Part shown: positions 17,731-45,101 of the stretch, one piece after another | How positions within the stretch are numbered: the first letter of the stretch is position 1 | Layout of the letters: each line of letters opens with the position of its first letter | Assembly: GCF_014467015.1 (NCBI RefSeq) | Contig: NZ_CP058559.1 | Location: forward strand, 2,976,001-3,040,000 | DNA length: 64,000 bases | Direction of reading: 5' to 3' | DNA from: Alkalicella caledoniensis | GTDB taxonomy: Bacteria > Bacillota > Proteinivoracia > Proteinivoracales > Proteinivoracaceae | The notes under the pieces: generated by a model | The model's database searches: none | Told to the model about the DNA's origin: nothing | Seen by the model: only the letters and a program-made list of their open reading frames with translations | Translations under genes and position numbers: made by a program

Positions 17731-18245
17731 GGGGGTCAGGACGTGCGGCAGAGCTTAGGTCGTACCATATAGCGGGTGGAATTCCCGTCGAGAAAGAACT
17801 AGCCATTCACTCGTAGCGAGTCTTGGAGGGCAGCGGGTAACCGTTGCTTATAAGCGTAGACAGTTAGGTAGTGGGCCGAAAGCCGTAAGGTTGAAGGGAT
17901 TGAGCTTCGAAAACCCGAATCAGAAGGGCTGATGTCATGTCCTGTACAGAAAGCAACATTTCTTTTCTCGAAATGGCAAGAGGAAAGGAACCTTCTCGGA
18001 GTCATTGACCTCGGCACGTTACACATTGATATGTTATGGCAACTCTGGAGGTCCTGCAGGTCTTTTCACTAAAAGTGAAGAGTATGGCGTACAAGCGATA
18101 CAAAGTGAGGAAACCAAATGCCTTGCAGAAAGTCGGATAACAGCGTAGTACCAATGAAATCGGGTAATGCTGATGGAGGAAAGGCTGTTACCTGTCATCG
18201 TTCTTCTTAGGGACACATTAACTACACACAGAGGTGGAATAATTA

Positions 18246-19564
18246 ATGGAAACAAAACTAATGAGAATAGCAGAATTAGCGAAATCTCAACCTAAGATGC
18301 AATTCACTGCTCTTGCACATTAATTGAATGAGGAGACACTTAAACAGTGCCACCATGAACTACCAAACAATAAAGCCGCAGGAGTAAACCGAACCACTAA
18401 GGAAGAGTATGAAGAACAGTTAAATGAAAACATTCGAAATCTAGTTAAGAGGCTCAAGCAGAAAAGCTACCATCCAAGTCCCGTAAGAAGGACTTACATT
18501 CCTAAAGCAGGTAGTAACAAGAAACGCCCTTTAGGAATACCGGAACACGAAGACAAGATAGTGCAGAGAGCTATTGCAAAGATTTTAAACGAACAAGATT
18601 TCTTGGATTCATCTTTTGGATTTCGTCCAAACCGTAATTGTCACGACGCCTTAAAGATTCTCAATGTCTACCTAGAAGGAAGAAAGATTAATTTCATAGT
18701 GGATGCCGATATTAAAGGGTTCTTTGATAACGTCAGCCATACATGGATGATGAAGTTTCTGAATCACCGAATCAATGATCTTAACTTTTTGAGAATCATT
18801 GAAAGATTCCTAAAAGGTGGGTACATGGAAGACGGAAAGACATATGTGACAGACTCCGGAACCCCCAGGGTGGATTGATTTCACCAATTATCGCGAATCT
18901 TTATCTTCACTATGTACTTGACTTATGGTTTGAGAAAATCATCAGGAAACACTGTAAAGGTCAAGCTTACATGGTTAGATATGCAGATGATTTTGTATGT
19001 TGCTTTCAGTTTGAAGAAGATGCACAATTATTTTACCGCGCATTAATCGAGAGATTAGAGAAATTTGATCTCGAGGTTGCAGAGGGTAAAACAAAGATTA
19101 TCCCTTTTGGAAGGTTTGCTAGTGAACGTTGTAAGGATGATGGGATGAAGAAGCCCGCGACATTCGATTTTCTAGGATTCACCCATTACTGTAGCAAAAG
19201 CCAGAAAGGTAATTTCCGTGTAAAGCGGAAAACCATTGCTAAGAAAATGCGTGCTAAAATCATACAGTGCAAAGAATGGCTGAAAATCAACAGATATAAA
19301 AGCATAACGGAGATAATGAAAAGCTTGAGTCGTTCGTTAAAAGGCTATTACAATTATTATTGCATAACGGACAACTCAATCACAGTAAATAACTTCATGG
19401 ATAAAGTAAGAAGTTTACTGTTCAAATGGATGAATCGAAGAAGCCAACGTAAATCTTTTAACTGGGATAAATTCATACTATTCGTGAGGAAATTCCCATT
19501 ACCTAAACCAAGTATGAAGGTGAGTATTTACGATTTAGGAAAAGAGATTAGTTACATTCTGTAA
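18246..19564 (+). pseudogene. ltrA: Group II intron reverse transcriptase/maturase (LtrA), nonsense plus frameshift
   Basis: The gene starts at the ATG after GAGGTGG, with METKLMRIAELAKSQP. A TAA at about 18322 replaces an expected leucine codon between FTALAH and LNEETLKQC. The second lesion is at about 18865, where DSGTP should continue QGGLISPIIANLYLH: one base is missing from the run ACCCCCAGG. Reconstructed, the protein has about 439 residues with RT domains (FGFRPNRNCHDAL, DADIKGFFDNVSH, YADDFVCC catalytic motif) and a maturase domain (SLKGYYNYYCI). The catalytic YADD is intact but the polypeptide is cut twice. Confidence 0.88.
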
Positions 19565-19577
19565 ATGGTGTTAGGAG

Positions 19578-19610
19578 GAGCCGTGTGCGTTAATTGCGCA
19601 AGCACGGTTC
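19578..19610 (+). ncRNA. Group II intron domain V
   Basis: GAGCCGTGTGCG pairs with CGCAAGCACGGTTC around a TTAATTG loop, giving the 33-nt catalytic hairpin of group II introns. Domain VI and the branch-point region follow up to 19661. Confidence 0.82.
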
Positions 19611-19726
19611 TGAGAGGGGGAAGAACTCAATCCGTTTAGGAAAGGTTCTTCTCTACTCGACTGCCATCATGCAATTTGTAACTTATTGTGGACATCACGA
19701 ACTCTCAAAAAATGGACAACCAAAAG

Positions 19727-19759
19727 CCCCATGAATTGATACAAAGTCAATTCATGGGG
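19727..19759 (+). terminator. Hairpin of the recurring hairpin/GCAGGATT unit (copy A)
   Basis: CCCCATGAATTGA and TCAATTCATGGGG form a perfect 13-bp stem around TACAAAG. A moderately T-rich stretch and then the GCAGGATT motif follow. It probably acts as a bidirectional terminator. Confidence 0.65.
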
Positions 19760-19772
19760 TTGTTATATTCCA

Positions 19773-19800
19773 GCAGGATTTCCATGCTTGGTTATTGAAT
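19773..19800 (+). repeat. GCAGGATT...TATTGAAT dispersed motif, copy 2
   Basis: GCAGGATTTCCATGC is followed by TTGGTTATTGAAT, 28 bp in total, 13 bp after a terminator-like hairpin. It is almost identical to the copies at 40205 and 41924 (reverse strand). Confidence 0.8.
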
Positions 19801-19839
19801 TATATAATATAATACTAACATACTTAGTAAGTGTTTTTA

Positions 19840-20002
19840 ATGGAATTGGCTGGATTCTAAGGAGAAGCGTAATAAGGTTCTCAATGTTATAAACTTATAT
19901 TTGAAATGGGTTGTTCTGAACCTACATCGTCGAAATCAAAGAATATCTTATCGAATGTTCTGTATTAACCCAAATGTAAAGCTAGTGAATTATGGTTTAT
20001 AA
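19840..20002 (+). pseudogene. DUF6361-like gene start, decayed (copy A)
   Basis: A leader shared with the copies at 35531 and 40271 (ACTTAGTAAGTGTTTTT) precedes a degenerate start. One frame then reads DSKEKRNKVLNVINLYLKWV, matching IDFSREQRNKMLNVIKFL of the best-preserved fragment at 35531. Those fragments resemble the N-terminus of DUF6361 proteins (KxGWIDFSxExRxKVLxVLDLL). The family match rests on memory of that motif. No complete gene is present. Confidence 0.5.
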
Positions 20003-20031
20003 AGAAAATTTGAGTGCTGAGGTGATGACCA

Positions 20032-20767
20032 ATGAATTACAGCTCCATAGATATAGATGGTTTTAAAGGAAAATGGATAGCTGTTTATATAAGTGATGAT
20101 GGTTTTGATGTGGGGCAGTTTGACACTATAGCTGATATATGTGAAAGGTACCCTAACTGTGATAGCTACCTTATGGATATGCCCATAGGACTTGTGGAAA
20201 GTAGAAATGAGCTGCGCCCTGATTTGTTGGTTAAGAAGGAACTTGGTAGAAAGGGGTCAAGTATTTTCCAGGTCCCTTGTAGGCAGGCAGTTTATGCTGA
20301 GGATAAGGTTAGGGCTAGGGAGTCAAATATACAAGTGCTAGGCAAGAGTTTGTCGGAGCAAACTTTAGGGATAGTTAAGGGGATCAGGCAAGTGGATGAG
20401 TTCTTATTTACTAACCCAGCTTGGAAGAATAGGTTGCTGGAAAGTCACCCGGAGTTTTGCCTTGCAAAGCTAAACGGAGGACAGCCAGTTTTGGAACACA
20501 AGGCCCCCTTGAGGGACAAGAAATAAGGATGGAGATATTGAGGAGATACTACCCCCAGGCAGATGGTGTTTTAGATAAGTATCGGGCATATTTTCCAAGA
20601 AGAAAAAAACTCGATGATGTAATAGACGCTTTATGTTTAGCGGTTATGGGGAAGATGAGTTCAGAAATGGTATAAAGACAATACCAGAACAGCCTATGAA
20701 GGATAGTAGAGGGTTGCTCATGCAGATTGTTTATGCAAGTTGTGAACACTCTAGGGGGAAGGAAAAA
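20032..20767 (+). pseudogene. DUF429 family protein, two frameshifts (copy A)
   Basis: The ATG at 20032 follows GAGGTGATGACC and opens a DUF429 (predicted RNase H-fold nuclease) protein: IDGFKGKWIAVYI, DMPIGLV and RQAVYAEDKVRARE. Compared with copy B at 40467, one base is lost near 20505-20515 (CCCCCTTGAGGG), ending the first frame at 20526. A second base is lost near 20662 (GAAATGG versus GAAAATGG). The C-terminal part, through IPEQPMKDSRGLLMQIVYA, lies in the same frame as the following acetyltransferase. The function of DUF429 proteins is unproven. This copy is probably inactive. Confidence 0.75.
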
Positions 20768-21274
20768 GTGTTGATAAATACTAATATAGACGGATTCAAA
20801 CTAAGATTTGCTACAGAAGATGATATTCGATTGATTCTAGAATTTATTAGGGAACTAGCTGAGTATGAGAAGTTGTTACATGAGGTTGTGGCAACTGAGG
20901 AAGTTTTAATGGACTCTTTGTTTAAGAGAAAAGTGGCAGAGGTTGTTATAGGTGAATATGATGGTAAGCCTGTAGCATTTGCTTTGTTCTTCCATAATTT
21001 CTCTACTTTCTTAGGTAGACCTGGTATATATTTAGAGGACTTATATGTGAAGCCTGGGATGAGGGGGAAGGGGATAGGTAAGATTATGTTGTCTTTCCTC
21101 TCTAACCTTGCATTGGAGCGTAATTGTGGAAGGTTAGAATGGTGGTGCCTTGATTGGAACAAGTCCTCCATTGAGTTTTATAAACAGATGGGAGCAGTTC
21201 CAATGGATGAGTGGACTACTTTTAGAGTTCACGATGATGCACTTAAGGGTTTAGCAGCAAATTTTAGAGAGTAA
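20768..21274 (+). CDS. GNAT family N-acetyltransferase (copy A, intact)
   Basis: The protein has about 168 residues from GTG 20768, or one codon fewer from TTG 20771; AGGGGGAAGG a few bases upstream supports either. It shows the GNAT fold: FKLRFATEDDIRLILEFI at the start, YLEDLYVKPGMRGKGIGKIML (strand 4 and the acetyl-CoA pyrophosphate loop, RGKGIG) near residue 90-110, and LEWWCLDWNKSSIEFYKQMGA near 120-140. It resembles diamine or amino-acid acetyltransferases. The open frame continues upstream into the tail of DUF429 with no stop between, so a DUF429-GNAT fusion is possible. Copy B (41210) has lost one base in this gene. Confidence 0.85.
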   Translation: MLINTNIDGFKLRFATEDDIRLILEFIRELAEYEKLLHEVVATEEVLMDSLFKRKVAEVVIGEYDGKPVAFALFFHNFSTFLGRPGIYLEDLYVKPGMRGKGIGKIMLSFLSNLALERNCGRLEWWCLDWNKSSIEFYKQMGAVPMDEWTTFRVHDDALKGLAANFRE

Positions 21275-21333
21275 TACTTTTATTATTATGTAAAGGTGTT
21301 GCACCAAATATATTACAGAAACGTGGGGCTAAT

Positions 21334-22320
21334 ATGTTAATAGAGCAAACCATAGATGAGTTTTTGCGTAAGAAAAGCAATTACATTGGGTACGAGATAG
21401 ATACAGTACAAAATCTATTACAAAGCGATAAAAAATATAGTCTTCTATACATTTGTGGACTTGGAGAAATTGAAGGTGATTCATTAAAATATAGTATAAA
21501 AACATCGGTAAAGGCTTATTCAAGCATTAAAGACAGTGCAATTGATATTTATAAGAAGTACCTAGGATTCTTAAGTAAAAAATTTGGCATATATGTGGAT
21601 GTGGATTTTCCGCCAATACCTATATCCATTAGCTTTGAGCGGATCATGTACATCGCCAAGTACCTGCAAAACCCGGAGCATGAGGTCAAACACTTAGAAG
21701 ATATATTATGGGTCAGCCACAGAACTGTTTTAGATGATATTGCAAAACTTAGGGGGAATACGGATGATCCCCTTCAGGTATGTGGTAAGAAGTTTATTAT
21801 TGAAGATATGGAACGTAGAAGAGGAAGAGTTACCATGGCTTCAACAGCTCATCCGATCTTTCTTACAGGTAATTTGACACAAGTGATTGTAACTTTAAAA
21901 GGCCTAAAAAGCATGAGTCAAGATTCTGCTTATAGGAGCTATGCCATGGAGATGGCAAAATCTATATGGACTCAGCTTTCTGATTATGCAAAAGATAGAA
22001 TTATTCTTGTTGTAACTGAGATGCTGCCAGATGAAGTTGAGTGGTATTTGAGCTTAGGTGACAAGGATGATAATAGCTTTTATAGTGAATATATGTGTAG
22101 CAACACAGAAGGTGCAGGCTGTGTTATTGATTGCTTGAAAAATCGTAAAGAGTGCTATATAGAGTATCAAAGGGAAGATAATTCCGTTGTTTTCTATGAG
22201 GATTGCAAGGTAATTGATTATGATGATACATCATTTACTGTTATACATAAGGGGGAGAAAGTAAGGTTAATAAGTGACAATATCCTCCGAAGTAGTTATA
22301 CAATTGAAGAATTAGTTTAA
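21334..22320 (+). CDS. HTH/WYL-like transcriptional regulator (copy A, intact)
   Basis: The 328-residue protein has an N-terminal helical region and a helix-turn-helix segment near 105-150 (FERIMYIAKYLQNP...LEDILWVSHRTVLDDIAKLRG). A central domain follows, and a C-terminal region (about 258-328: CVIDCLKNRKECYIEYQ..., IDYDDTSFTVIHKGEKVRL) has the strand pattern of WYL-type ligand domains. It probably senses a small molecule or nucleic acid and regulates the block. The C-terminal WYL assignment is by pattern only. It is followed by a strong inverted repeat that covers the ribosome-binding site of the next gene. Copy B (42192) has a nonsense codon, so this is the only intact copy. Confidence 0.68.
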   Translation: MLIEQTIDEFLRKKSNYIGYEIDTVQNLLQSDKKYSLLYICGLGEIEGDSLKYSIKTSVKAYSSIKDSAIDIYKKYLGFLSKKFGIYVDVDFPPIPISISFERIMYIAKYLQNPEHEVKHLEDILWVSHRTVLDDIAKLRGNTDDPLQVCGKKFIIEDMERRRGRVTMASTAHPIFLTGNLTQVIVTLKGLKSMSQDSAYRSYAMEMAKSIWTQLSDYAKDRIILVVTEMLPDEVEWYLSLGDKDDNSFYSEYMCSNTEGAGCVIDCLKNRKECYIEYQREDNSVVFYEDCKVIDYDDTSFTVIHKGEKVRLISDNILRSSYTIEELV

Positions 22321-22331
22321 AACTTGAAGCC

Positions 22332-22396
22332 CAGCCCTCATATTTATTTAGTTCGGAGTAATTTATAATGAACTTAACAAATAAATATGGGGGCTG
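22332..22396 (+). promoter_or_regulatory. Long inverted repeat covering the ribosome-binding site (copy A)
   Basis: CAGCCCTCATATTTATTT (from 22332) pairs with AAATAAATATGGGGGCTG (to 22396), and the stem is extended by AGTTC/GAACTT. The right arm contains the GGGGG ribosome-binding site 7-8 bp before the ATG at 22403, so the stem would hide it. The same structure, with a different loop, precedes the homologous gene in copy B (43191-43255). Confidence 0.72.
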
Positions 22397-22402
22397 ATTA
22401 TT

Positions 22403-24156
22403 ATGAAAAACACTTTTTACAGACCAGAGGAAATCAATGTAGAGGAGTTTGATTCAATAGTATCAAAGCTTAATAAGGATCTCATGGACATTTCAAGAGG
22501 CTATGTTAATGAATATGATTTAAAAAGATATGTGGAAAAGCTAGTTGAGGATCAAAAGGATTTCGAAGGAAACGATAAGATAGGGTTTTGGGGGCTTTGG
22601 GATCCAAATAAGCTCCCAACGGATGCTCGAGTTGAGTACTTCTACATGCCATCTTATATTGCCACCGGGGTACTTGTTAGCTGTAAGCTAGATTATCCTC
22701 ACATTGCTAGTGAGGTAACGGGATTTGAAGCTGCTTTAGAAAAAGGGTTGCTGGGTTCAACCACTAGAGGTTTTCAAGGGCATGGTTATGATAACCTAGA
22801 TGGTTTAGTTAAGGCTTTAAATGTATTTATCACTGCTAAAACTCATATCTTTATTGAGAAGTTTCCAGAGATATGTAAAGAGTTCACAAAGCTTTTTAAA
22901 GATTCACTGGAATTTTGTGAAAACAGTCTACAAACAGGTAATACAAAAGGGGATTGGGGGGAAGATTACTCGGTTCAATATAAATGTATTCTTCAAAGCA
23001 TTTATCCCCACAGATATTTGAACTAGAGGGAAAACTTCAAATGGATAAAGAAGAGGTAAATATATTTGTCTACGGTACTCTGATGAAAAATAACCGCAAG
23101 GGAATGACCTATTTAGATGATGCTAGATACTTAGGTGAAGCTACATTAAAGGGTTATGACCTCTATGACTTAGGATGCTTTCCAGGGATTGTAGAAGGAG
23201 ATGATATGGTAAAGGGAGAGCTATATGCTATTTCTGTGGATAGATTACCTGAGATTGACCGTTATGAGGGGGAAGGGTCTTTATATAGAAGAAAGATGGT
23301 AGAAGTTTTTAGCAACGAGAACAATGCTCCAGTGGAGAGTTATGTTTATGTGTATAATAAAGCTGTCTTGGGTAAGTTGAAGATAGAAAATAGCTATCAT
23401 CCATGGTATCAGGGTATAGTAGAAGAGATTAAAGGTGATAATCTTGTTTGGTATGCCACCTATGGGTCAAATGTTAACAAGGAAAGGTTTATGAAATATA
23501 TAAATGGTTGTTGCGATACTACACCTCCACAAAAGGAAAGACCTATAATCATAGATCATCCAATATACTTTGCCAATAGAAGTAGCACATGGGAAGATAG
23601 AGGAGTTGCATTTCTAGACTTACAAAAGGAAGGCAAAACCTATGGAAAGATGTACTTGATAACAAAGGAACAATTGAGAGAGATTCAAAGACAAGAGGGT
23701 CCAGGGTGGTATGATGCGGTAGGGGATTTGGGTAATAAGGATGGAATACCTGTGAAGACACTGACACATTCTTCAAGGTTTGTAGAGGAGAATATACCAT
23801 GCAGGGCATACTTTGATATTATTAAACAGGGTATTAGTACTACTTACCCCACATTAAAAGATGATGAAATTGATGCTTACTTACTAGGTCACTGCCTGGA
23901 TGGGGATATGGTTGAGGTACTGCGATACCTTAGGAAACAACAGCATGGAGTTAAAATCTCTAAGATATGTACCGACTTAAATAAAAATGAGAAGATGGTC
24001 ATAGATTCACTTTCGGGGTTACGTGACCTAGGTTTAGTAGTACAAGATGGTAGGAACGTAAGGGAAGGAGTTACTGCAAACTCACCTGAGGCTGTATATT
24101 ATACTGTAAAGGGAATTAGGGAAGCTATAGATAAGGTTGTGGTAAGTTTTGAGTAA
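22403..24156 (+). pseudogene. Four-domain protein with two GGCT-like domains, split by a frameshift (copy A)
   Basis: This is homologous over its full length to the intact 584-residue protein at 43262. One base is lost at about 23020-23026 (TTGAACTAG where copy B has TTAAAACTAG), so the first frame ends after 207 codons. The second part resumes with MDKEEVNIFVYGTLMKNNRKG and runs to 24156. The first half is an unknown domain; the second holds two gamma-glutamylcyclotransferase-like domains and a winged-helix end. Translation of the second half could restart at ATG 23041, so a partial function is conceivable. Confidence 0.82.
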
Positions 24157-24695: not shown

Positions 24696-25742
24696 ATGAT
24701 AAGTGGAATTAAACCAAAACATAAAATAACCCCAGTGCGTCTTCATCTAGAGATAAAAGGTGAATATCTGACAAATTATCAAAAAAGGATGCTTAAAAGA
24801 TATGGAGAGTCCTCAACGCGTGAATCCATAACCAGGGATATTCTTATACCGTCGGATATGCCATTACATAACCTTCATTATGCAATTCAAAAATTGTTTG
24901 GATGGCAGAACTCTCATCTACGGAGTTTTTATTTGCCAGAAGAAAGGTATCAAGAGTTGACAGGTGGAACTGTTAAGGGGTGGTCTGATTTAGTAGGCGT
25001 ATTATTCCAACCTCCATCAGAAGCAGAACATGATATTTTTTGGGATGATGATTACCAGAGGGGTAACATCAATACATGGCTTAAGAAAAAGTACGCAGGG
25101 CCATATTTCTATGGAGGCATACTAGAACATCCAGACGCTGCAAGACGAGACATGAAAAGACTATTAGATAGGTTCAATATGGTTGAAGTCATTGAATCCT
25201 TTAGTGACTATTGGGAACGTTCAAAAGGAGATGACGATGAAGAAATGAGAGTTTTACGAAGGGCACCGCTAATTGAATTAACCCTTGAAGAAATGAATTC
25301 ATCCATTATGATTGAAGGAGGGACAGAGAGCTTATTGGAGCGTTTAGAAGTTGATAAAATAATAGCAGCACAAGATGAGGTTATGGATTCTAAGAATCTG
25401 TTCCCTGTAACAAAGGAACTAATTTATAATTATGACTTTGGTGATAATTGGATTATAAAAATAACTAAGTACAAAGATTGTGAAGATTTGATAAGAGATA
25501 ATCTTATTGACCGAGATGAGCTTGAAGAGGCAGAAGATACTGTAGTAAATAAGCATAAGCCAGTTTGTCTTAACAAAGATGGAATATCCGTCCTTGATGA
25601 TGTTGGAGGATTGAGTGGATTTGCTGACTTATTAGGAGTTATTTATGAAGGTGAAGATAAAGAAGAGAAGGCTAATGCTCGTGCTTGGGCACAAAGCCTT
25701 GGTTGGAGTGCTAAAAAGATGTCTAATAAAATGATGATATAG
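24696..25742 (+). CDS. Plasmid pRiA4b ORF-3-like family protein
   Basis: The 348-residue protein starts at the ATG after AAAGGAG. It has the hallmarks of the PRiA4_ORF3 family: VRLHLEIKG...RDILIPSDMPLHNLHYAIQKLFGWQNSHLRSFYL near residues 12-90 and NYDFGDNWIIKITKYKDC near 246-265. A long acidic insert lies between. Members occur on plasmids and in mobile or defence regions and their function is not established. It is followed by a small gene and a broken HTH gene, then the Wadjet operon. Confidence 0.8.
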   Translation: MISGIKPKHKITPVRLHLEIKGEYLTNYQKRMLKRYGESSTRESITRDILIPSDMPLHNLHYAIQKLFGWQNSHLRSFYLPEERYQELTGGTVKGWSDLVGVLFQPPSEAEHDIFWDDDYQRGNINTWLKKKYAGPYFYGGILEHPDAARRDMKRLLDRFNMVEVIESFSDYWERSKGDDDEEMRVLRRAPLIELTLEEMNSSIMIEGGTESLLERLEVDKIIAAQDEVMDSKNLFPVTKELIYNYDFGDNWIIKITKYKDCEDLIRDNLIDRDELEEAEDTVVNKHKPVCLNKDGISVLDDVGGLSGFADLLGVIYEGEDKEEKANARAWAQSLGWSAKKMSNKMMI

Positions 25743-26765: not shown

Positions 26766-28163
26766 ATGAAATTATTTGAACGGATTCCAGAAAGATTATT
26801 TAGTATATTAACATCATCTAATAAGGAGCTCTATGTTGAAGCCTTGTTTGTATTACGCCAAGCATTTAAGACAGAACTGGTGATTCGACGTATAGACCTT
26901 GTGGCAATGATGATTGATGCTATGGAAGTAAAAATAATCCAAGCAGATTTTTCCGAAGAAGCTGAAGAAATGGATGAAGGAATTAAGGTAGATGTAAGTT
27001 TATCGGGAAAAGCATACTTGATAATCCGTAAACTGAAAGAGACAGGGTGGTTAGAGGTTGAATACCAAAACAGCTCTTTCGAAGAGGATATAACCATACC
27101 AGATTACGCAATTTCCATAATTAACTTGTTATACGATATCTCCACAGAGCGGATGAAAGAATACAACAGCTACGTTTTTGCAACATATTCTGCATTGAAA
27201 AATACTGAGGAAAACCCAGACTATATGTATCAGGCTTTGCAAGCTGCATATCAGAACACAGTTCAACTGGTGGATGAATTAAAGCTTTTATTTAATAACA
27301 TTAGGCGGTACTACCAAAGAATGACAACAGAGCTTAATATTAATGAGTTGCTAGCTGAACACTTTGACTATTATAAAGAGCAAATAATTGATAACATTTA
27401 CTACCCTCTTAAGACTATCGATTCTGTACCTAGGTTTAAGCATGCTATATTGTTGCGCTTAAATGAATGGGTGTTACAAGATGAGGTTATTGAAATGATG
27501 GTTATGCAAGGAAAAAAGCGGCGTATCTATACATCAGAGGAAGAGGGCAAAGAAGATATCTTAGAGAAGATTAACTATATTGCAAATACCTTTGAAAACA
27601 TAGAAGGAATGATTGCAGAAATCGACAAGAAGCATGTGGCGTATACCAATGCGTCCATTGATCGTATCCGCTATATGATGAACTCTGATAGAAGTGTAAA
27701 AGGGAAACTTGTTGAACTGTTAAAGCAATCTGACAAAGCTGAAATATATTCAAAACTTTCAGAAGGGGTACTTGTATATCAGCAAGGATACATTGATGAC
27801 GGCTCTTTGTACAATAGAACTAAACGCACAGTAAAATCGGAAGGGAAGCCTACACCCATAGAAGAAATAGAAGTTGATAATGGGTTAATTGATACCTTTT
27901 TGGAAGATATTCGAAAGCAATATAGTTTTAGAAAAATTAACGAGTTTGTTTTAGAGTGTTTTAGCGGGAAAGACAAGTTCTGTACCGAGGATATGGAAAT
28001 TAGATGTCAGGAAGAATTTATTCTACTTATTTTGGCAACGTTCCAGACAGGACAGAGAAATACCACATACTGTATGGAATTTTTAGATGGAACTGTAGAA
28101 AAAAATGGATATCGATTGCCTAAGGCTATTTTTAACAGGAAAGGGTTGGAAAATAGTGTTTGA
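26766..28163 (+). CDS. jetA: Wadjet system protein JetA
   Basis: The 465-residue protein is mostly helical and opens MKLFERIPERLFSILTSSNKELYVEALFVLRQ, which matches the JetA family annotated as DUF5716. It corresponds to the kleisin MksF of MukBEF/MksBEF-like SMC complexes and would bridge the JetC ATPase heads. A winged-helix-like start, a central helical region and a C-terminal domain are expected. It is the first gene of a jetA-B-C-D operon, overlapping jetB by 8 bp. Wadjet complexes detect and cleave closed circular plasmids by loop extrusion. The type (I, II or III) cannot be fixed by eye; the DUF5716-like JetA points away from type I. Confidence 0.85.
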   Translation: MKLFERIPERLFSILTSSNKELYVEALFVLRQAFKTELVIRRIDLVAMMIDAMEVKIIQADFSEEAEEMDEGIKVDVSLSGKAYLIIRKLKETGWLEVEYQNSSFEEDITIPDYAISIINLLYDISTERMKEYNSYVFATYSALKNTEENPDYMYQALQAAYQNTVQLVDELKLLFNNIRRYYQRMTTELNINELLAEHFDYYKEQIIDNIYYPLKTIDSVPRFKHAILLRLNEWVLQDEVIEMMVMQGKKRRIYTSEEEGKEDILEKINYIANTFENIEGMIAEIDKKHVAYTNASIDRIRYMMNSDRSVKGKLVELLKQSDKAEIYSKLSEGVLVYQQGYIDDGSLYNRTKRTVKSEGKPTPIEEIEVDNGLIDTFLEDIRKQYSFRKINEFVLECFSGKDKFCTEDMEIRCQEEFILLILATFQTGQRNTTYCMEFLDGTVEKNGYRLPKAIFNRKGLENSV

Positions 28164-32153: not shown

Positions 32154-32163
32154 TGAAGGGGAG

Positions 32164-34634: not shown

Positions 34635-34650
34635 ACTGGGGGGGATACAA

Positions 34651-35295: not shown

Positions 35296-35342
35296 ATGAC
35301 AATCTATCAGTCTATAAACAACACCTAAGAAAAAAGGGAGTA

Positions 35343-35367
35343 GGAGTCAGGACTACAATCATGCAAT
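35343..35367 (+). repeat. GGGGTCAGGACTGCAAT repeat, diverged copy
   Basis: GGAGTCAGGACTACAATCAT followed by GCAAT matches the copies at 40081 and 41811 and the intron-split copy at 17731/19662. Confidence 0.7.
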
Positions 35368-35425
35368 CCCCAATGTAATATTGAGTTCTTAGTAAAATAA
35401 ATTACAGCATAGGTATTAATAAAGA

Positions 35426-35467
35426 AGCCCAATGAGTTGACACAAAGTCAATTCACTGGGCTTTTTT
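35426..35467 (+). terminator. Hairpin of the recurring hairpin/GCAGGATT unit
   Basis: AGCCCAATGAGTTGAC and GTCAATTCACTGGGCT form a long stem (few mismatches) around ACAAA and are followed by TTTTTT. The inner TTGACACAAAGTCAA is shared with the hairpins at 40159 and 45102. Confidence 0.78.
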
Positions 35468-35470
35468 CCT

Positions 35471-35497
35471 GCAGATTTCCATCCCTTGCTATTGAAT
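35471..35497 (+). repeat. GCAGGATT...TATTGAAT dispersed motif, copy 3
   Basis: GCAGATTTCCATCC followed by CTTGCTATTGAAT. It directly follows the T tract of the preceding terminator and lies 34 bp before a DUF6361-like gene start. Confidence 0.72.
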
Positions 35498-35530
35498 ATA
35501 CAATACTAACTGACTAAGGAAGTGTTCTTG

Positions 35531-35623
35531 ATGAAATTTGGATGGATTGATTTTTCTAGGGAGCAGCGTAATAAGATGCTTAATGTTATAAAATTTTTGT
35601 CTGAGCCCTGGGCCTGTGGATAG
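35531..35623 (+). pseudogene. DUF6361-like gene start, best-preserved fragment
   Basis: The ATG opens MKFGWIDFSREQRNKMLNV and IKFLSEPWACG before a TAG. The start closely resembles that of DUF6361 proteins, in which the next residues after LLSEPG would continue for several hundred more. Only 30 codons remain. Decayed versions of the same start and leader are at 19840, 40271 and 42000. Confidence 0.6.
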
Positions 35624-35702
35624 GTCGGTCAAGTACTAGATTTTTTTTCTAGGCACTGTAAAAGTGATAAAAATGAGACTTCATATTTAAGCAAAGAGTA
35701 AA

Positions 35703-35802
35703 ATGCAGATAAGAAAAGTAATTATACGTAATTTCCAAGGATTTAGCGAAGAGGATACTCATATTGACTTATCTAACTTACCCACTCTTATTGGGGCTAA
35801 TA
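35703..35802 (+). pseudogene. gajA 5' fragment (second Gabija remnant)
   Basis: The ATG opens MQIRKVIIRNFQGFSEEDTH and IDLSNLPTLIGAN, then the match stops just before the Walker A lysine. The intact gajA at 13310 reads MQIRKIIIRNFQGFGEEDTH and IELSDLTTFIGAN over the same stretch, and the DNA is similarly close. This is the truncated start of a second, related OLD-family nuclease gene. It does not derive from a recent copy, since several silent and coding changes separate the two. Confidence 0.85.
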
Positions 35803-36929: not shown

Positions 36930-39857
36930 TTGACAACTAAACTAAGAGAGATGACTGATTACATGAGGCGGGCTGTAGCAACTCAAGGAAGTCGTCCCGT
37001 TGATTTTAAGAAAGACTTATTTGTACAAATTACAGCTAAAGAGCTTGAAGAAGGGAAAAGCCATCCAGGTATTTTTACAGAACTAACCAAAGAAAGAGGT
37101 AATGTACAGGACTTAGTACCAGTTTTCATAGCAGCAAAAACTATTAAAACAAATTATAGCGAACAGACTAAGGAAGTTAAAGAAATAAATGACTTAACAG
37201 CTGTATATTTTATCCCAGCGCTTCTCTCAAAGGATGGTTACTTTAAGCCTTATGACGATAAGGATAAAAAGCCATGGATTCCAAGGGAATTTTTAACCCC
37301 AAATATAGATAGTGTGTTAGCTGTTGGCGATTCTAACAGGCTAGATGATTTCCTAAGTAATAATGTAGGGAAAAGTTGGATGATAGGAAACTGGACACAA
37401 TATCTCGTATACGCTAAAGAATTATTTGAGTATACTACAAAAGTTACATATGAAAGTAGACAGCTTGAAAATGGAGAACAATTGGACGAAAATATCTATG
37501 TGTTTAATGACAAGACAATTAATGCTACTAAGGCAATTTTAAGCTTATATGATCATATGCTAAGAGGCACTGAGGAAAACTCTAATGATTCAATATTGAG
37601 AACAAAAGTACCTACTTACGAGAATTTTGTGTCTTTAGAATCTAAACCAGTAAAGGACCTAGTGAAAAATGAACTCGATCAAATGAAAAGACACGTTGGT
37701 CAGATGGGTGGAGAATATCCTTTATCCCCTTCACAGAGAGAATGCATAAATCACTTTGTAAATATGGATGATACGGATATTCTAGCAGTAAATGGTCCTC
37801 CAGGTACAGGTAAGACCACTTTACTTCAATCTATTGTTGCTGACACATATGTAAAAAGAGCTCTAGCTGAAGCAGAACCTCCAATTATTGTAGCATCTTC
37901 TACCAATAATCAAGCAGTAACAAACATTATAGAATCCTTTGGGAATATAAATAAGGTGGGTTTAAATAATCTAGAGGAACGGTGGATTACTGGAGTTCAT
38001 AGCTTTGCTACATATTTCCCCTCATCATCAAGCAAAGATAAAGCAGAGAAAAATGGATACCAGTATACAAATCAAAAGGGCAATTATTTTGTTGAAAAGA
38101 TTGAAACGGAAAAAAACATCACAGACTCCAGAGTGAAATTTCAAAGTTCTTTTATCAAATTCTTTGATTTAGACATATCGTTTAATGAAATGGGAAGAAA
38201 ATTGAATTCAGAACTAAAAAGAGTTAATCAAATAAGAATGGAGCTCCTTACTATAACTTCTGAATTGGGTAAACACATAAAACATGTTACTGTTAATCAG
38301 TGCATAGATAATTTAAGTAAAGAAAAAAAGGATATTCTACTGGATATAGAGGAAACGAAAAACAGGTTACAAGAATGGAAGGACCATTTCAAAAATATAC
38401 CAATATTAAATAGGATGTTATGGTTTATACTACAGTTTAGACGGAAAATAATTTTGGATAATATGTCTTTCGTTAGTTTAGGAGAAGAGTTTCTAGAGGA
38501 AGATATGTCAATAGATGGGATCAAATATAAATATGCTTGTATCTTAAAGGAACTTAGAAACAAGGCTAGAAAAAGAGATGAAATTGTAAAGGAAATAAGT
38601 AATCTGCAAATTAAATATAACCTCTGCCTGAAGGAACTTAAAAACTACCTTGATGATAAAGAATTAAATAGATTTAATAGTGGTTTAGATATAAGTGAGA
38701 TTAATGATGTGTTTGATACTACCTTAAGGTATATACAATTCTGGTTGGCAGTGCATTACTATGAACATCAGTGGCTTAGCGGAGTGAACCAAATACCTAT
38801 AACTAAAAAACATACAACTTTTGAGGATGTCTTAAATCGCAGATATAAGCGACTTGCAATGCTTACACCCTGTTTTGTTATGACTTTTTTTCAGCTTCCT
38901 AAGAATTTTTCTTTCTATGTCAGTGAAGGTAGTGAAAAATATGGTTATTTTTACAACTATATTGATCTGTTAATCGTTGATGAAGCTGGACAAGTCTCGC
39001 CAGAGATAGCAGCTTGCTCTTTTGCCCTAGCTAACAAAGCTTTAGTGGTTGGTGATGTTTACCAAATACAGCCCGTATGGAATATTAGCAAACCCCTAGA
39101 TAAAGTTCTAGCTGTTTGCTCTAACGTTATTGATTGTCCTCAAAAATTTGATGAGTTAGAACGACTGGGACTAAATACATCCGAGTCCAGTGTCATGAAG
39201 GTAGCAGCAAAAAGCTGTAAATACGAAAAATATGGGAATAAAGGACTTTTTCTTAGTGAGCACAGAAGATGTTACGATGAGATAATTCAGTTTTGTAATG
39301 AGCTAGTTTACAATAGTAAATTAGAACCAAAAAGAGAGAAGGGGGTAAAAGATCAAAACTATAAAATTAGGCATATACCACATATGGGGTATAAACAGAT
39401 AGATACTCAGAAATCGAGCAAAAAATGTGGTAGTAGATTCAATTATAAGGAAGCGGAAGAGATAGTATTATGGGTTAAAGAGAATTTTTCATCTATTAAA
39501 GATGGTTATAAAAATGAAGAACCCAAAAATCTTCTTGGGATTATAACACCCTTCAAGGCGCAGGCTGATTGTATTCAAAAACTTATCAAAAAAATCGCTC
39601 CAGAAATTACAGAATATATTAGTGTAGGGACAGTACATACCTTTCAGGGTGCTGAAAGAAAAATTATCATACTATCAACGGTATACGGCTATGGGGAAGA
39701 TTGTTCTTTTATCGATTCAAATGAAAGTATGTTAAATGTTGCAATTTCTAGGGCTAAAGACAGCTTTTTAGTATTCGGAGATTTAAACTGTTTGAGTAAT
39801 GATCCCAAAAAACCTAGTGGTCTACTACGATACAATGTGGTAGCAAAAGGTATCTAA
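36930..39857 (+). CDS. Large SF1 (UPF1/DNA2-like) helicase, probable defence protein
   Basis: The 975-residue protein starts at TTG after AGAAGGAG. An N-terminal domain of about 270 residues (no known match) precedes the SF1B core: NGPPGTGKTTLLQ near residue 289, ASSTNNQAVTNI near 325, LLIVDEAGQVSPEIA near 680, VGDVYQIQPVW near 707. A coiled-coil insertion (about 390-610) separates motifs Ia and II. C-terminal motifs are VGTVHTFQGAERKIIILS near 900 and LNVAISRAKDSFLVFGD near 940. All helicase motifs are present. Stand-alone AAA/SF1 helicases with unknown N-terminal domains are common in defence islands. Which system it belongs to is unknown. Confidence 0.85.
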   Translation: MTTKLREMTDYMRRAVATQGSRPVDFKKDLFVQITAKELEEGKSHPGIFTELTKERGNVQDLVPVFIAAKTIKTNYSEQTKEVKEINDLTAVYFIPALLSKDGYFKPYDDKDKKPWIPREFLTPNIDSVLAVGDSNRLDDFLSNNVGKSWMIGNWTQYLVYAKELFEYTTKVTYESRQLENGEQLDENIYVFNDKTINATKAILSLYDHMLRGTEENSNDSILRTKVPTYENFVSLESKPVKDLVKNELDQMKRHVGQMGGEYPLSPSQRECINHFVNMDDTDILAVNGPPGTGKTTLLQSIVADTYVKRALAEAEPPIIVASSTNNQAVTNIIESFGNINKVGLNNLEERWITGVHSFATYFPSSSSKDKAEKNGYQYTNQKGNYFVEKIETEKNITDSRVKFQSSFIKFFDLDISFNEMGRKLNSELKRVNQIRMELLTITSELGKHIKHVTVNQCIDNLSKEKKDILLDIEETKNRLQEWKDHFKNIPILNRMLWFILQFRRKIILDNMSFVSLGEEFLEEDMSIDGIKYKYACILKELRNKARKRDEIVKEISNLQIKYNLCLKELKNYLDDKELNRFNSGLDISEINDVFDTTLRYIQFWLAVHYYEHQWLSGVNQIPITKKHTTFEDVLNRRYKRLAMLTPCFVMTFFQLPKNFSFYVSEGSEKYGYFYNYIDLLIVDEAGQVSPEIAACSFALANKALVVGDVYQIQPVWNISKPLDKVLAVCSNVIDCPQKFDELERLGLNTSESSVMKVAAKSCKYEKYGNKGLFLSEHRRCYDEIIQFCNELVYNSKLEPKREKGVKDQNYKIRHIPHMGYKQIDTQKSSKKCGSRFNYKEAEEIVLWVKENFSSIKDGYKNEEPKNLLGIITPFKAQADCIQKLIKKIAPEITEYISVGTVHTFQGAERKIIILSTVYGYGEDCSFIDSNESMLNVAISRAKDSFLVFGDLNCLSNDPKKPSGLLRYNVVAKGI

Positions 39858-40080: not shown

Positions 40081-40108
40081 GGGGTTCAGGACTGCAATCG
40101 TGCAATTT
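40081..40108 (+). repeat. GGGGTCAGGACTGCAAT repeat, empty intron site
   Basis: GGGGTTCAGGACTGCAATCG followed by TGCAATTT. It is the counterpart of the intron-split copy, with CAGGAC and TGCAATC joined, so it proves the intron ends. The homology to copy A continues into AACTTATAGTGGAC. Confidence 0.8.
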
Positions 40109-40158
40109 CTAACTTATAGTGGACCTCCATGAGCTCACAAAAAATAGGAATATAATAG

Positions 40159-40191
40159 CCTCATGAATTGACACAAAGTCAATTCATGGGG
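40159..40191 (+). terminator. Hairpin of the recurring hairpin/GCAGGATT unit (copy B)
   Basis: CCTCATGAATTGAC and GTCAATTCATGGGG pair around ACAAA. A T-rich tail and the GCAGGATT motif follow, as in copy A. Confidence 0.65.
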
Positions 40192-40204
40192 TTATTATAT
40201 TCCA

Positions 40205-40232
40205 GCAGGATTTCCCTGCTTTGTTATTGAAT
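40205..40232 (+). repeat. GCAGGATT...TATTGAAT dispersed motif, copy 4
   Basis: GCAGGATTTCCCTGC followed by TTTGTTATTGAAT, 28 bp, as in copy A. Confidence 0.8.
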
Positions 40233-40270
40233 ATATAATATAATAATAACTTACTAAGTAAGTGTTTTTG

Positions 40271-40440
40271 ATGAAATTTGGCTGGATGATTCTATGGAGA
40301 AGCGTAATAAGGTTCTCAATGTTATAAATTTTTATTTGAAATGGGTTGTTCTGAACCTATTTTCGCCGCAACCCAAGAGTATCTTAGAATGTTCTGTATT
40401 AACCCAAATGTAAAGCATAATCAATTATGAGTTCATAAGA
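40271..40440 (+). pseudogene. DUF6361-like gene start, decayed (copy B)
   Basis: The ATG opens MKFGW, then a frameshift; another frame reads DSMEKRNKVLNVINFYLKWVV. It is nearly the same as the fragment at 19840, so the decay predates the block duplication. Confidence 0.52.
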
Positions 40441-40466
40441 AAACTTAAGTACTGAGGTGATGACCA

Positions 40467-41203
40467 ATGAATTACAGCTGGATAGGTATAGATGGTTTTA
40501 AAGGAAAGTGGATAGCTGTTTATATAAGTGATGATAGTTTTGATGTGAGACAGTTTGATACTATAGCTGATATATGTGAAAGATATCCTAACTGTGATAG
40601 CTACCTTATTGATATGCCCATAGGGCTTGTGAAAAATAGAAATGAGCTGCGTCCTGATTTGCTGGTTAAGAAGGAACTTGGTAAGAGGGGGTCAAGTATC
40701 TTCCAGGTCCCTTGTAGGCAGGCAGTTTATGCTGATGATAAAGTTCGAGCTAGGGAGTCAAATATCGAAGTGCTAGGAAAGAGTTTGTCGGAGCAAACTT
40801 TAGGAATAGTTAAGGGGATCAGGCAAGTGGATGAGTTCTTACTTAGTCATCCAGTTTGGAAAAATAGGCTGCTGGAGAGTCATCCGGAGTTTTGTTTTGC
40901 AAAGCTAAACGGAGGACAGCCAGTTTTGGAACACAAGGCCTCCATTGAAGGGCAAGAAATAAGGATGGAGATTTTGAGGAGATACTACCCCCAGGCAGAT
41001 GGTGTTTTGGAAAAGTATAAGGCATACTTTCCAAGAAGAAAGAGGCTGGATGATGTAATAGATGCTTTGTGTTGGCAGTGATGGGTAAGATGATTGCAGA
41101 AAATGGTATGAAGACAATACCAGAGCTGCCTATGAAGGATAGTAGAGGGTTGTTCATGCAGATTGTTTATGCAAGTGGTGAACATTCTAGGGGGAAGGAA
41201 AAA
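40467..41203 (+). pseudogene. DUF429 family protein, C-terminal frameshift (copy B)
   Basis: The ATG after GAGGTGATGACC opens an uninterrupted frame of 204 codons to 41081: IGIDGFKGKWIAVYIS-like start, DMPIGLV, RQAVYADDKVRARE, ESHPEFCFAKLNGG and RRKRLDDVIDALC. One base is missing at about 41073 (TTGTGTTGGCAG where copy A has TTATGTTTAGCGG). About 35 final residues (LAVMGKMIAENG, TIPELPMKDSRGLFMQIVYA) are therefore in another frame. The main domain is intact, so this copy might keep activity. DUF429 proteins are predicted RNase H-fold nucleases of unknown function. Confidence 0.72.
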
Positions 41204-41209
41204 GTGTTA

Positions 41210-41709
41210 ATGGATACTGGTATAGACGGATTCAAACTAAGATTTGCTAAGGAAGAGGATGTCCCACTGATTCTTGAATTTATTAGGGAGTTAGCTGAGT
41301 ATGAAAAATTATTGCATGAGGTTGTCGCAACTGAAGAGGTTTTAATGGACTCACTGTTTAAGAGAAAAGTGGCAGAGGTAGTTATAGGTGAATATGATGA
41401 TAAGCCTGTAGCATTTGCTTTGTTCTTCCATAATTTCTCTACTTTCTTAGGTAGACCTGGTATATATTTAGAAGACTTATATGTAAAGCCTGAGATGAGG
41501 GGAAAGGGGTAGGTAAGATTATGTTGGCTTTTCTTGCTAATTTGGCTTTGGAACGTGATTGTGGAAGGTTAGAATGGTGGTGCCTTGATTGGAATGAGTC
41601 TTCCATTGAGTTTTATAAGCAGATGGGAGCAGTTCCCATGGATGAATGGACTACTTTTAGGGTTCATGATGAAGCCCTTAAGGATTTGGCAGGGAAATTT
41701 AGAGATTAA
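41210..41709 (+). pseudogene. GNAT acetyltransferase, frameshifted in the acetyl-CoA loop (copy B)
   Basis: The ATG at 41210 follows AGGGGGAAGG. The frame runs to VKPEMRGKG and then stops: GGAAAGGGGTAGG lacks the A present in copy A's GGGATAGG. The rest (MLAFLANLALERDCGRLEWW to 41709) continues in another frame. The lesion hits the RGKGIG loop that binds acetyl-CoA, so this copy is inactive unless slippage restores the frame. Confidence 0.82.
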
Positions 41710-41729
41710 AGGGTTCTCATTAGATGCTT

Positions 41730-41770
41730 AGGCCCGTGATTTGACTTTGCGTCAAATCATAGGCCTTTTT
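41730..41770 (+). terminator. Strong terminator inside copy B
   Basis: AGGCC, then TGATTTGAC and GTCAAATCA around TTTGC, then GGCC and TTTTT. It lies in the part of copy B that has no match in copy A and would cut the WYL gene off from upstream transcription. Confidence 0.78.
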
Positions 41771-41810
41771 CGATACTGGCTCTTAAACTCTGAAAAAATA
41801 CAGAGAATTC

Positions 41811-41836
41811 GGGGTCAGGACTGCAATCATGCAATT
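41811..41836 (+). repeat. GGGGTCAGGACTGCAAT repeat, copy in the extra segment
   Basis: GGGGTCAGGACTGCAATCAT followed by GCAATT, the closest match to the consensus of the four copies in the window. Confidence 0.78.
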
Positions 41837-41923
41837 CTCAGCCTAGTTAAGTGATTTTTAGTCACATCGTGGGGAGTTTTCTGTGTTGTTATAAGTTATG
41901 TGAGAATGATAGTTCACTGTGTA

Positions 41924-41951
41924 ATTCAATAACCAAACATGGAAATCCTGC
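41924..41951 (-). repeat. GCAGGATT...TATTGAAT dispersed motif, copy 5 (inverted)
   Basis: On the minus strand it reads GCAGGATTTCCATG followed by TTTGGTTATTGAAT. It is the only inverted copy. Confidence 0.75.
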
Positions 41952-41999
41952 TGAAAACCCCCCCCATCAATAGTATCAACTTACTAGGGAAGTGCTTTG

Positions 42000-42060
42000 A
42001 TGGTGCCTGGATTGACTTTTATAAGGGAGCAGCAGTAAGGTGCTTATATAGTAGTAGCAT
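42000..42060 (+). pseudogene. DUF6361-like gene start, strongly decayed
   Basis: After a leader resembling the other copies (ACTTACTAGGGAAGTGCTTTG), TGGATTGACTTTTATAAGG reads WIDFYK, then the match fades. It is the fourth and weakest remnant of this gene start. Confidence 0.42.
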
Positions 42061-42191
42061 TTTAGACACCTTAAGCCGGGGGAGCATATAGAGGATGTAA
42101 GTCCTAGCAAACGTTATTTCTTAAGTCAAAGACAGATTGAGAAGTGATGAATAGTATGAATGTGACGAAATAAAAAATCGGAGGTTCAGAT

Positions 42192-43178
42192 ATGTTACTT
42201 GAGGAGACCATTGAGGAGTTTTTGAGTTCAAAGAAAAAATACATGGGTTATGATGAAAAAATGGTAAGAAATTTATTACAAGTAAGTAAAAAGTATAGCC
42301 TTTTAGAGATATGTGGCTATGGAGAGATTTAAGTCGATTCTTTGAAAGTAAGTATTAAAGAATCGGTAAAGGCTTATTCCAGTAGCAAGGATAATGCTAT
42401 TGATATTTACAGGAAGTACCTTGGATTCTTAAGTAAAGAATATGGTATACATGTGGAGATAGATTTTCCGCCTATACCTGTGTCCATTAGTTTTGAAAGG
42501 ATAATGTACATAGCTAAATATCTGCAGAACCCGGATCATAAGGTGAAAGACTTAGCAGATATCTTATGGGTAAGTGAGAGGACTGTGTTGGACGATATAG
42601 CAAAGCTAAGGGGGAATACAGATGACCCCCTTCAGGTATGTGGTAAGAAGTTTATTATTGAAGATATGGAGCGTAGAAGAGGAAGAGTTACCATGGCTTC
42701 AACAGCTCATCCGATCTTTCTTACAGGTAATTTGACACAAGTGATTGTAACTTTAAAAGGCCTAAAAAGCATGAGTCAAGACTCTGCTTATAGGAGCTAT
42801 GCCATTGAGATGGCAAAGTCCATCTGGACTCAACTTTCTGACTATGCAAAGGAAAGAATTATTTATGTTACAACTGAAATGCTGCCTGATGAAGTTGAGT
42901 GGTATTTAAGTCTTGGTGATAAAGATGAGAATAGCTTTTATAGTGAATATATGTGTAGCAATACAGAAGGTGCAGGTTGTGTTATTGACTGCTTAAAAAA
43001 CCGTAAATCATGCTGTATTGAGTATCAAGAAGATGATAACACAGTAGTTTTCTATGAAGACTGTATGGTACGTGATTATGATGGAAAAACTTTTAAAGTT
43101 ATCTATAAGGGAGAGAAAATGGAACTGTTAAGTGACAATGTTCTTCGCAGTGGTTATACAATAGAAGAGTTAATCTAA
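42192..43178 (+). pseudogene. HTH/WYL-like regulator with a nonsense codon (copy B)
   Basis: The ATG at 42192 (GGAGGTTCAGAT upstream) opens MLLEETIEEFLSSKKKYMGY, homologous to the intact regulator at 21334. A TAA at 42330-42332 replaces the glutamate codon of copy A (GEIEGDSL versus GEI*VDSL). The rest of the frame (278 codons from 42342), with the HTH and the WYL-like part, is intact. A restart product lacking about 50 residues is possible but no good ribosome-binding site precedes the next ATG. Confidence 0.78.
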
Positions 43179-43190
43179 AAACTTGAAGCT

Positions 43191-43255
43191 CAGCCCTCAT
43201 ATTTATTTAGTTCAGATTCTTTTACAATGAACTTAACAAATAAATATGGGGGCTG
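43191..43255 (+). promoter_or_regulatory. Long inverted repeat covering the ribosome-binding site (copy B)
   Basis: CAGCCCTCATATTTATTT pairs with AAATAAATATGGGGGCTG, extended by AGTTC/GAACTT. The stem is unchanged from copy A while the loop has changed (CAGATTCTTTTACAAT here). Conservation of the stem only suggests a functional RNA structure. Confidence 0.75.
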
Positions 43256-43261
43256 ATTATT

Positions 43262-45016
43262 ATGAAAAACACTTTTTACAGACCAGAGGAAATTAACGTG
43301 GAGGAGTTTGAGTATATAGTATCAAAGCTTAATAATGACCTAGTTAATATTTCCAGAGGCTTTGTTAATGAATTTGATTTAAGGAGATACGTACAAAAGC
43401 TAGTTGAGGATCAGAAGGATTTAGATCGAAATCCAAAGATGGGCTTTTGGGGGCTTTGGGATCCACAAGACCTACCAAGCGATGCTCGAGTTGATTTTTT
43501 CTATATGCCAACTTATATAGCAACTGGGATCCTGATAAGCTGCAAACTCAATTTTCCTCACATTGCAGCTGAGGTAGAAGGATTTGATGTGGCTTTAGAA
43601 AAAGGTTTGCTGGCTTCAACAGGCAGAGGTTTTCAGGGACACGGTCATGATAATCTAGATGGCTTGGTTAAAGCTCTTAATGTCTTTATCACAGCTAAAG
43701 TTCATATCTACCTTGAGAAATTTCCAGATACATGCAAAGAGTTTACAAAGCTGTTCAATGAGTCAATAGCTTTTTGTGAAAATAGCTTATTAACTGGTAA
43801 CACAAAAGGAGATTGGGGAGAAGATTATTCAGCTCAGTATAGATGTATCCTTCAAAGTCTATATCCTCACAAATATTTAAAACTAGAACAAAGAATTGAA
43901 GTGGATAAAGAAGAAGTGAATGTATTTGTGTATGGAACACTAATGAAAAGTAACCGAAATGGAATGACTTATTTAAAAGACGCAAAGTGTTTAGGTGAAG
44001 CTACATTAGAAGGTTATGAGCTTTATGACTTAGGTAGTTTCCCAGGCATAGTTCAAGGGGATGGCAAGGTAAAGGGAGAGGTATATACGATCTCAGTTGA
44101 TAAGTTACCGGAGCTTGATAGATATGAGGGGGAAGGTTCTTTATATAAGAGAAATAAGGTAGAAGTTTATAGTGAGGAAAGTAAAGAGAAAGTCAACTGT
44201 TATGTTTATGTCTATAACAGGTCAACTACAGGTAGACCTAAGGTAGAATACAAATACCAACCTTGGCATGAGGGAGTAGTAGCTAAGATGAACGATGATA
44301 ATCTTGTTTGGTATGCAACCTATGGATCCAATGTAAATAAAGAGAGGTTCATGAAATATATTGAAGGCTGTAGTGATACTACACCTCCCAAAAAAGAAAG
44401 ACCTATAATTATAGATCATGAGCTATATTTTGCTAACAGAAGTGGTAGATGGGATAGCAGAGGTGTGGCTTTCCTAGACTTAGGTAAAGAAGGCAAAACC
44501 TATGGAAAGATGTACTTGATCACTGAGGAACAATTTAAAGAGATTCAGCAACAAGAGGGCCCAACCTGGTATGATGGTGTAGGGAGCTTAGGGTTTAAAG
44601 ATGGTATTGCAGTAAAAACACTGACACACTCTACACGATTTGTAGATGAAAATATTCCTTGTAAAGCATACTTTAACACAATAAAACAGGGTATACGTAG
44701 TACATACCCTACATTAAGTGAAGAAGAAATTGATGCATACTTGCTAGGGCGTTGTCTAGATAGGAACACAGTTGAGGTATTGCAATATATTAGAAAGCAA
44801 CAGCATGGTGTTAGAATCTCTAAGATCTGTAACCACTTAAATAAGAATGACAAGATGGTCGTAGATTCGCTTTCGGGATTAAGAGAATTGGGCTTAGTAG
44901 TACAAGACAGTAGGAGCGTAAGGGAAGGAGTTGCACCAAACTCAGCTGAAGCTGTTTACTATACTGTAAGAAGTAGGAGAGCAGCTATAGATATGGTGGT
45001 AGGAAGGTCTAAATAG
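43262..45016 (+). CDS. Four-domain protein: unknown N-domain, two GGCT-like domains, winged helix (copy B, intact)
   Basis: The 584-residue protein starts at the ATG after GGGGGCTGATTATT. Residues 1-210 form a helical domain of unknown type (FWGLWDPQDLPSDARV, GRGFQGHGHDNLDGLVKALNVF). Residues about 218-330 begin VNVFVYGTLMKSNRNGMTYL and resemble gamma-glutamylcyclotransferase/AIG2 folds. A second such domain (about 345-490) begins LVWYATYGSNVNKERFMKYI. Both keep the YGTL/YGSN phosphate-loop-like motif. Residues about 500-584 look like a winged helix (VEVLQYIRKQQHGVRISKICNHLNKNDKMVVDSLSGLRELGLV). The fusion suggests a small-molecule-processing enzyme linked to DNA or partner binding. The combined function is unknown. 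Copy A of this gene is frameshifted. Confidence 0.78.
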   Translation: MKNTFYRPEEINVEEFEYIVSKLNNDLVNISRGFVNEFDLRRYVQKLVEDQKDLDRNPKMGFWGLWDPQDLPSDARVDFFYMPTYIATGILISCKLNFPHIAAEVEGFDVALEKGLLASTGRGFQGHGHDNLDGLVKALNVFITAKVHIYLEKFPDTCKEFTKLFNESIAFCENSLLTGNTKGDWGEDYSAQYRCILQSLYPHKYLKLEQRIEVDKEEVNVFVYGTLMKSNRNGMTYLKDAKCLGEATLEGYELYDLGSFPGIVQGDGKVKGEVYTISVDKLPELDRYEGEGSLYKRNKVEVYSEESKEKVNCYVYVYNRSTTGRPKVEYKYQPWHEGVVAKMNDDNLVWYATYGSNVNKERFMKYIEGCSDTTPPKKERPIIIDHELYFANRSGRWDSRGVAFLDLGKEGKTYGKMYLITEEQFKEIQQQEGPTWYDGVGSLGFKDGIAVKTLTHSTRFVDENIPCKAYFNTIKQGIRSTYPTLSEEEIDAYLLGRCLDRNTVEVLQYIRKQQHGVRISKICNHLNKNDKMVVDSLSGLRELGLVVQDSRSVREGVAPNSAEAVYYTVRSRRAAIDMVVGRSK

Positions 45017-45101
45017 GATGAAGTAGCGGTGCAAGAGATGGGTTAAAGGTAAATGTTGGATTCTTAGTAAAAATTAAAGTTACAGTTTAGGTATTAACAA
45101 A

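Follow-up and report, generated by a model that had tools for sequence, protein, structure and literature searches.

Defence islands show a turnover of passenger genes and contain pseudogenes, and WYL-domain regulators of defence loci are described in the BrxR family (PMC9122601). The region analysed here is a stretch of 64,000 nucleotides of the Alkalicella caledoniensis genome (termed the window; all coordinates are counted from its first base). It encodes a type I Wadjet system, the surroundings of which form a chromosomal defence island with Gabija and type I restriction genes. The explanation we hold to be probable is that, within this island, the Wadjet genes lie between two paralogous, degenerating copies of a pair of independent cassettes, and that both copies decayed late and independently of each other.

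Self-comparison of the window by BLASTN resulted in the identification of two direct repeats (both E 0.0), the first matching 19659-21274 to 40090-41709 with 89% identity and the second matching 21332-24146 to 42190-45006 with 80% identity. These define copy A (19659-24146) and copy B (40090-45006), which have the same strand and gene order and lie approximately 20.4-20.9 kb apart. The original prediction had described duplicated DUF429, GNAT, regulator and GGCT genes in a common order, which was confirmed by BLASTN and by base-by-base alignment; its placement of the block from 17731 onwards did not hold, as 17731-19658 lies outside the block and is mostly group II intron. Both copies are located on the plus strand and consist of two cassettes. 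Cassette 1 comprises an upstream hairpin element followed by DUF429 and GNAT (19659-21274 in copy A, Pfam PF04250 and PF00583; 40090-41709 in copy B). Cassette 2 encodes an HTH regulator (21334-22320 in copy A, 328 aa; 42192-43178 in copy B) and a tandem-GGCT protein (22403-24156 in copy A; 43262-45016 in copy B, 584 aa; Pfam PF06094). The copy-to-copy spacing is 20,435 for cassette 1 and 20,859 for cassette 2, a difference arising because copy B has more than 400 extra bases between its cassettes. This inter-cassette DNA (41710-42189, plus strand) carries the border motif described below (copy at 41814), and part of the hairpin element lies there in inverted orientation at 41922-41967. Apart from short border elements, no further copy of either repeat is present in the 3.70-Mb single-contig genome.

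Base-by-base alignment and piecewise translation revealed lesions in both copies. Copy A has lost single bases near 20508 and 20662, both in the DUF429 part, and near 23020 in the GGCT gene, where the frameshift at codon ~206 leaves the open reading frames 22403-23026 and 22984-24156. Copy B has lost single bases near 41071, at the DUF429 C-terminus, and near 41508 in GNAT. Furthermore, its regulator contains a TAA stop at 42330-42332 (codon 47), which is a substitution and not an indel, leaving an open reading frame of 278 aa from a TTG at 42342. The regulator of copy A and the GGCT gene of copy B are intact. It was predicted that the two copies jointly encode about one full set of the four genes, with DUF429 nearly intact in copy B. 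Instead, DUF429 is frameshifted in A and in B, having lost about 30-40 C-terminal residues in the latter compared to a stand-alone homologue of 239 aa (L019), and no full set survives because DUF429 is broken in both copies. Moreover, DUF429 and GNAT form one ancestral frame without a stop in both copies, so that each copy has two frameshifts in this joined frame. The remaining lesions were as described earlier, with one qualification for GNAT of copy A: the ATG at which GNAT starts in copy B is ATA at the same place in copy A, and the gene is therefore intact only if it has an independent start at a GTG or TTG just upstream. Partial products may be formed from some of the broken frames, namely from the regulator of copy B via the internal TTG and from GNAT of copy A via GTG/TTG.

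Each frameshift in the copies is the loss of one base, in some cases next to a short homopolymer, and some long-read assemblies also yield single-base deletions. They might accordingly be assembly errors, both copies being intact in the living organism, and sequencing errors had been named beforehand as an observation that would speak against the predicted decay. We consider this unlikely. Six frameshifts, five in the copies and one in the intron reverse transcriptase, fall within 9.4 kb representing 19% of the checked coding sequence, whereas the other intact genes of the window, about 40 kb, contain none, a clustering with p ~4e-5 under a uniform error rate. Likewise, no frameshift split was detected in 39.5 kb of this genome aligned to 307 proteins of a same-family genome. 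This comparison with a relative's proteins replaced a Viterbi frame-switch scan, in which frameshifts were not distinguishable from natural gene junctions and known lesions went undetected. The genome completeness of 98.6% and the regulator TAA, which is a substitution, also argue against errors. A uniform sequencing error is thus unlikely as the source of the lesions; a local error cluster would be possible, given that every frameshift in the copies is of the single-base deletion type.

The ratio Ka/Ks is 0.06-0.16 for each aligned in-frame part of both cassettes, indicating that both copies were formerly under strong purifying selection. Lineage-specific changes number 30 vs 36 for the GGCT gene, the broken copy showing no acceleration, and 8 vs 17 for the regulator, a difference that is not significant. 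Together with the lack of acceleration in the broken GGCT gene, the low Ka/Ks of the two copies would mean that the lesions are late, although the identical signal is expected if the lesions are errors and the genes intact. The two cassettes have diverged to unequal extents. Silent changes affect 22.5/97, 10.5/25 and 22/83 sites in the DUF429-GNAT parts, 95.7/191 sites in the regulator and 202/360 sites in the GGCT gene, corresponding to a Ks of about 0.3 in DUF429 and GNAT (0.6 in one short part) vs 0.8-1.1 in the regulator and GGCT genes and thus to a roughly threefold difference in synonymous divergence. Alternatively, all four genes could have been duplicated once, with an extensive conversion event later affecting cassette 1 and giving rise to the unequal divergence.

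The pattern of damage had been taken to suggest selection on the set as a whole. On this reading, a working set of four genes was duplicated once, the copies lost genes reciprocally, and selection preserved an intact version of every gene. In line with it, the regulator survives intact in copy A and the GGCT gene in copy B, each with a broken counterpart in the other copy, GNAT of copy A is open, and the purifying selection acted on both copies. However, DUF429 is broken on both sides and joined in frame to GNAT, the synonymous divergence of the halves is about threefold apart, and the four genes occur together in no other locus examined. Moreover, four random hits on eight gene copies leave an intact copy of all four genes in 23% of cases, which applies even on the lesion count of the original prediction, and with five copies hit the observed outcome of three of four genes kept arises in 57%. 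The complementarity is no more than chance gives and is not evidence of selection, and we regard the reciprocal loss of a selected set as improbable. If true, it would be a rare natural example in which two broken copies together preserve a whole gene set; the data instead fit an ordinary, independent decay of redundant copies and serve as a caution that complementary damage is likely to arise when genes and lesions are few.

The distribution in the sampled genomes likewise points to two separate cassettes and not to a natural four-gene set. The regulator gene has a GGCT gene as its neighbour in seven other loci (L014, L015, L016, L017, L098, L100 and L101), and matches to DUF429 or GNAT are missing from all seven. 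When 300 genomes were searched separately using the regulator profile, a GGCT gene lay beside the match in all three other matching genomes. Conversely, DUF429 and GNAT were found together in none of the 13 other genomes with GNAT and the 6 with DUF429, for which about 1.5 kb was read on each side, and these loci also lacked the regulator and GGCT genes; elsewhere GNAT stands alone, and DUF429 is alone or joined to another domain. An operon of DUF429, GNAT, regulator and GGCT genes was not found in the sampled genomes, and single-copy versions of the block, which the original prediction had called for, were absent from the sampled loci, contrary to its expectation as far as testable. No relatives of the GGCT protein were found in viral contigs. 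In two of the loci, a gene for an ADP-ribosylglycohydrolase and a DUF434/DUF5616 gene lie directly upstream of the pair (L015 1064-2637, L016 5615-7188), and two others encode a shorter pair of an HTH regulator and a two-domain protein composed of the N domain and GGCT (L100 922-2615, L101 4396-6104).

Between the copies lies a cargo of about 15.9 kb, in agreement with the predicted 16-kb defence cargo; the features given here with coordinates are on the plus strand. It encodes a PRiA4 ORF3-like protein (24696-25742; PF07929, 6.2e-24) and contains adjacent and intact genes for JetA, JetB, JetC and JetD of Wadjet type I (26766-33435; PADLOC JetA1/B1/C1/D1, E 6.6e-74 to 0), two DUF488 proteins and a DuOB protein (33571-35295; PF04343, PF22557, PDC-M45B), an MkoC-like SF1 helicase (36930-39857; PDLC03924, 1.2e-279, model positions 1-963 of 1136) and a J-domain protein. 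About 170 positions at the end of the PADLOC model are not covered by the helicase. Within the cargo a relic is found at 35338-35802, which consists of a third copy of the motif and hairpin element that precede DUF429, matching 40149-40333 in the BLASTN self-comparison, followed by a fragment (35703-35802) that by translation is the N-terminus of GajA and is 84% identical to 13302-13409. The third border element and the GajA fragment at 35.34-35.80 kb suggest an earlier rearrangement of the island.

Just upstream of copy A, a group II intron (17743-19665, ends approximate, plus strand; Rfam RF02005 at 17779-18011 and RF00029 at 19576-19661) sits in the motif GGGTCAGGAC^TGCAATCATGC and splits it there, and the same motif is unsplit at 35346, 40085 and 41814. 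The reverse transcriptase/maturase of the intron (18324-19564, plus strand) is split by a frameshift into the pieces 18324-18878 and 18875-19564, which match TIGR04416 at positions 2-181 and 185-352, respectively. Before the intron, minus-strand sequence at the start of 17560-19665 resembles by eye the end of an IS21 istB gene. SigH-promoter-like boxes of the type GCAGGATTT-N-GAAT were observed at 19773, 40205, 41951, 54669 and 56082, and in strict form there are 5 in the window vs 4 in 400 kb elsewhere in the genome; the promoter reading of the border elements is a lead only because most boxes are copies of one repeat. DUF6361 was considered as the source of a short peptide in the upstream element, and PF19888 had no match in the genome.

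The direct orientation of the repeats, their spacing of 20.4-20.9 kb, the border elements and the relics of an earlier rearrangement at 35.3-35.8 kb might suggest that a mobile unit with Wadjet as cargo, such as a composite transposon or an excisable island, is bounded by the repeats. This is extremely unlikely: profile searches of both copies detected neither a transposase nor a recombinase family, the copies are only 80-89% identical and diverged unequally, the repeats contain ordinary genes, and no other copy exists in the genome. The repeats have nevertheless probably exchanged sequence by gene conversion, judged from the alignment of the regulator genes. A stretch of 110 bp is perfectly identical between 21814-21923 (plus strand) and 42672-42781, and the run of 34 silent-identical codons is longer than expected, being reached in 0/10000 shuffles (permutation p<1e-4). 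Since the direct repeats are able to recombine and contain a conversion-like tract, a deletion of the cargo is mechanically plausible; a crossover would remove 20,435 or 20,859 bases including Wadjet, depending on the cassette, where a single value of about 20.4 kb had been proposed. A form lacking the cargo was not seen.

For the intact GGCT protein of 584 aa, four domains are predicted: a helical N domain is followed by a clear GGCT domain, then by a second, GGCT-like one, and the C-terminus forms a winged helix (low-confidence model, mean pLDDT 60). The first GGCT domain matches PF06094 with 5.7e-33, E. coli YtfP with 1.7e-20 and YkqA with 4.8e-7, and the residues of the YGTL and EGxGxLYxR-type motifs are invariant in the family, as for AIG2-like proteins; the glutamate of the GGCT motif is presumably the catalytic one. 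For the regulator, which had been called WYL-like, a WYL domain was absent by Pfam even at E<=2, NCBIfam gave no match, no solved WYL protein matched in sequence, the HTH_11 match was weak and below the cut-off, and the PDB profile search returned weak HTH matches only. In its low-confidence model (mean pLDDT 62) a small C-terminal beta-barrel is better modelled, with fold matches to Hfq, DriD and BrxR at E 0.05-0.2. On these weak fold matches the WYL-like assignment is possible. The literature search found no paper linking GGCT proteins to WYL regulators and none describing DUF429 in defence. The regulator and the helical-GGCT-GGCT-winged-helix protein might form a conserved two-gene module for signalling or stress, so far undescribed, that was recruited to the defence island and perhaps controls or assists defence, which we consider doubtful.

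As a summary, we favour the independent late decay of two paralogous copies of two cassettes. Cassette 1 would be DUF429 and a GNAT acetyltransferase in one frame, and cassette 2 a conserved two-gene module in which an HTH regulator, whose C-terminus may fold into an Sm-type barrel, is paired with the helical-GGCT-GGCT-winged-helix protein. Repeated acquisition or duplication would have placed one copy on each side of Wadjet, the recurrent hairpin/motif elements at the cassette borders being the putative joining points of the pieces and the third element a relic. The copies would have exchanged sequence by probable gene conversion and have been under long purifying selection, until recent independent mutations inactivated genes in each; such late lesions are consistent with redundancy or loss of selection. 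We infer both the order of these events and the non-functionality of the broken copies. Of remaining interest are the recurrent regulator-GGCT pair and direct repeats that might delete Wadjet in one step.

Compared to described systems, the region resembles defence islands with passenger-gene turnover and pseudogenes in combining Gabija, type I restriction, Wadjet type I, an MkoC-like helicase, a group II intron and broken genes, but the genes of the paralogous cassettes on both sides of the cargo are not recognised as defence genes. Similarity to the BrxR family lies in an HTH regulator beside an effector-like gene and, at low confidence, in a predicted small C-terminal beta-barrel with weak DriD/BrxR fold matches, whereas the regulator has no WYL Pfam match and its partner is a GGCT protein. 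Judged by sequence, the first GGCT domain is a clear member of the YkqA/AIG2-like gamma-glutamyl(amine) cyclotransferases. The protein differs from these by a second GGCT-like domain with a YGSN motif and without Pfam match, by an extra helical N-terminal domain and a C-terminal winged helix, and by the HTH regulator gene that adjoins the GGCT gene in its closest relatives.
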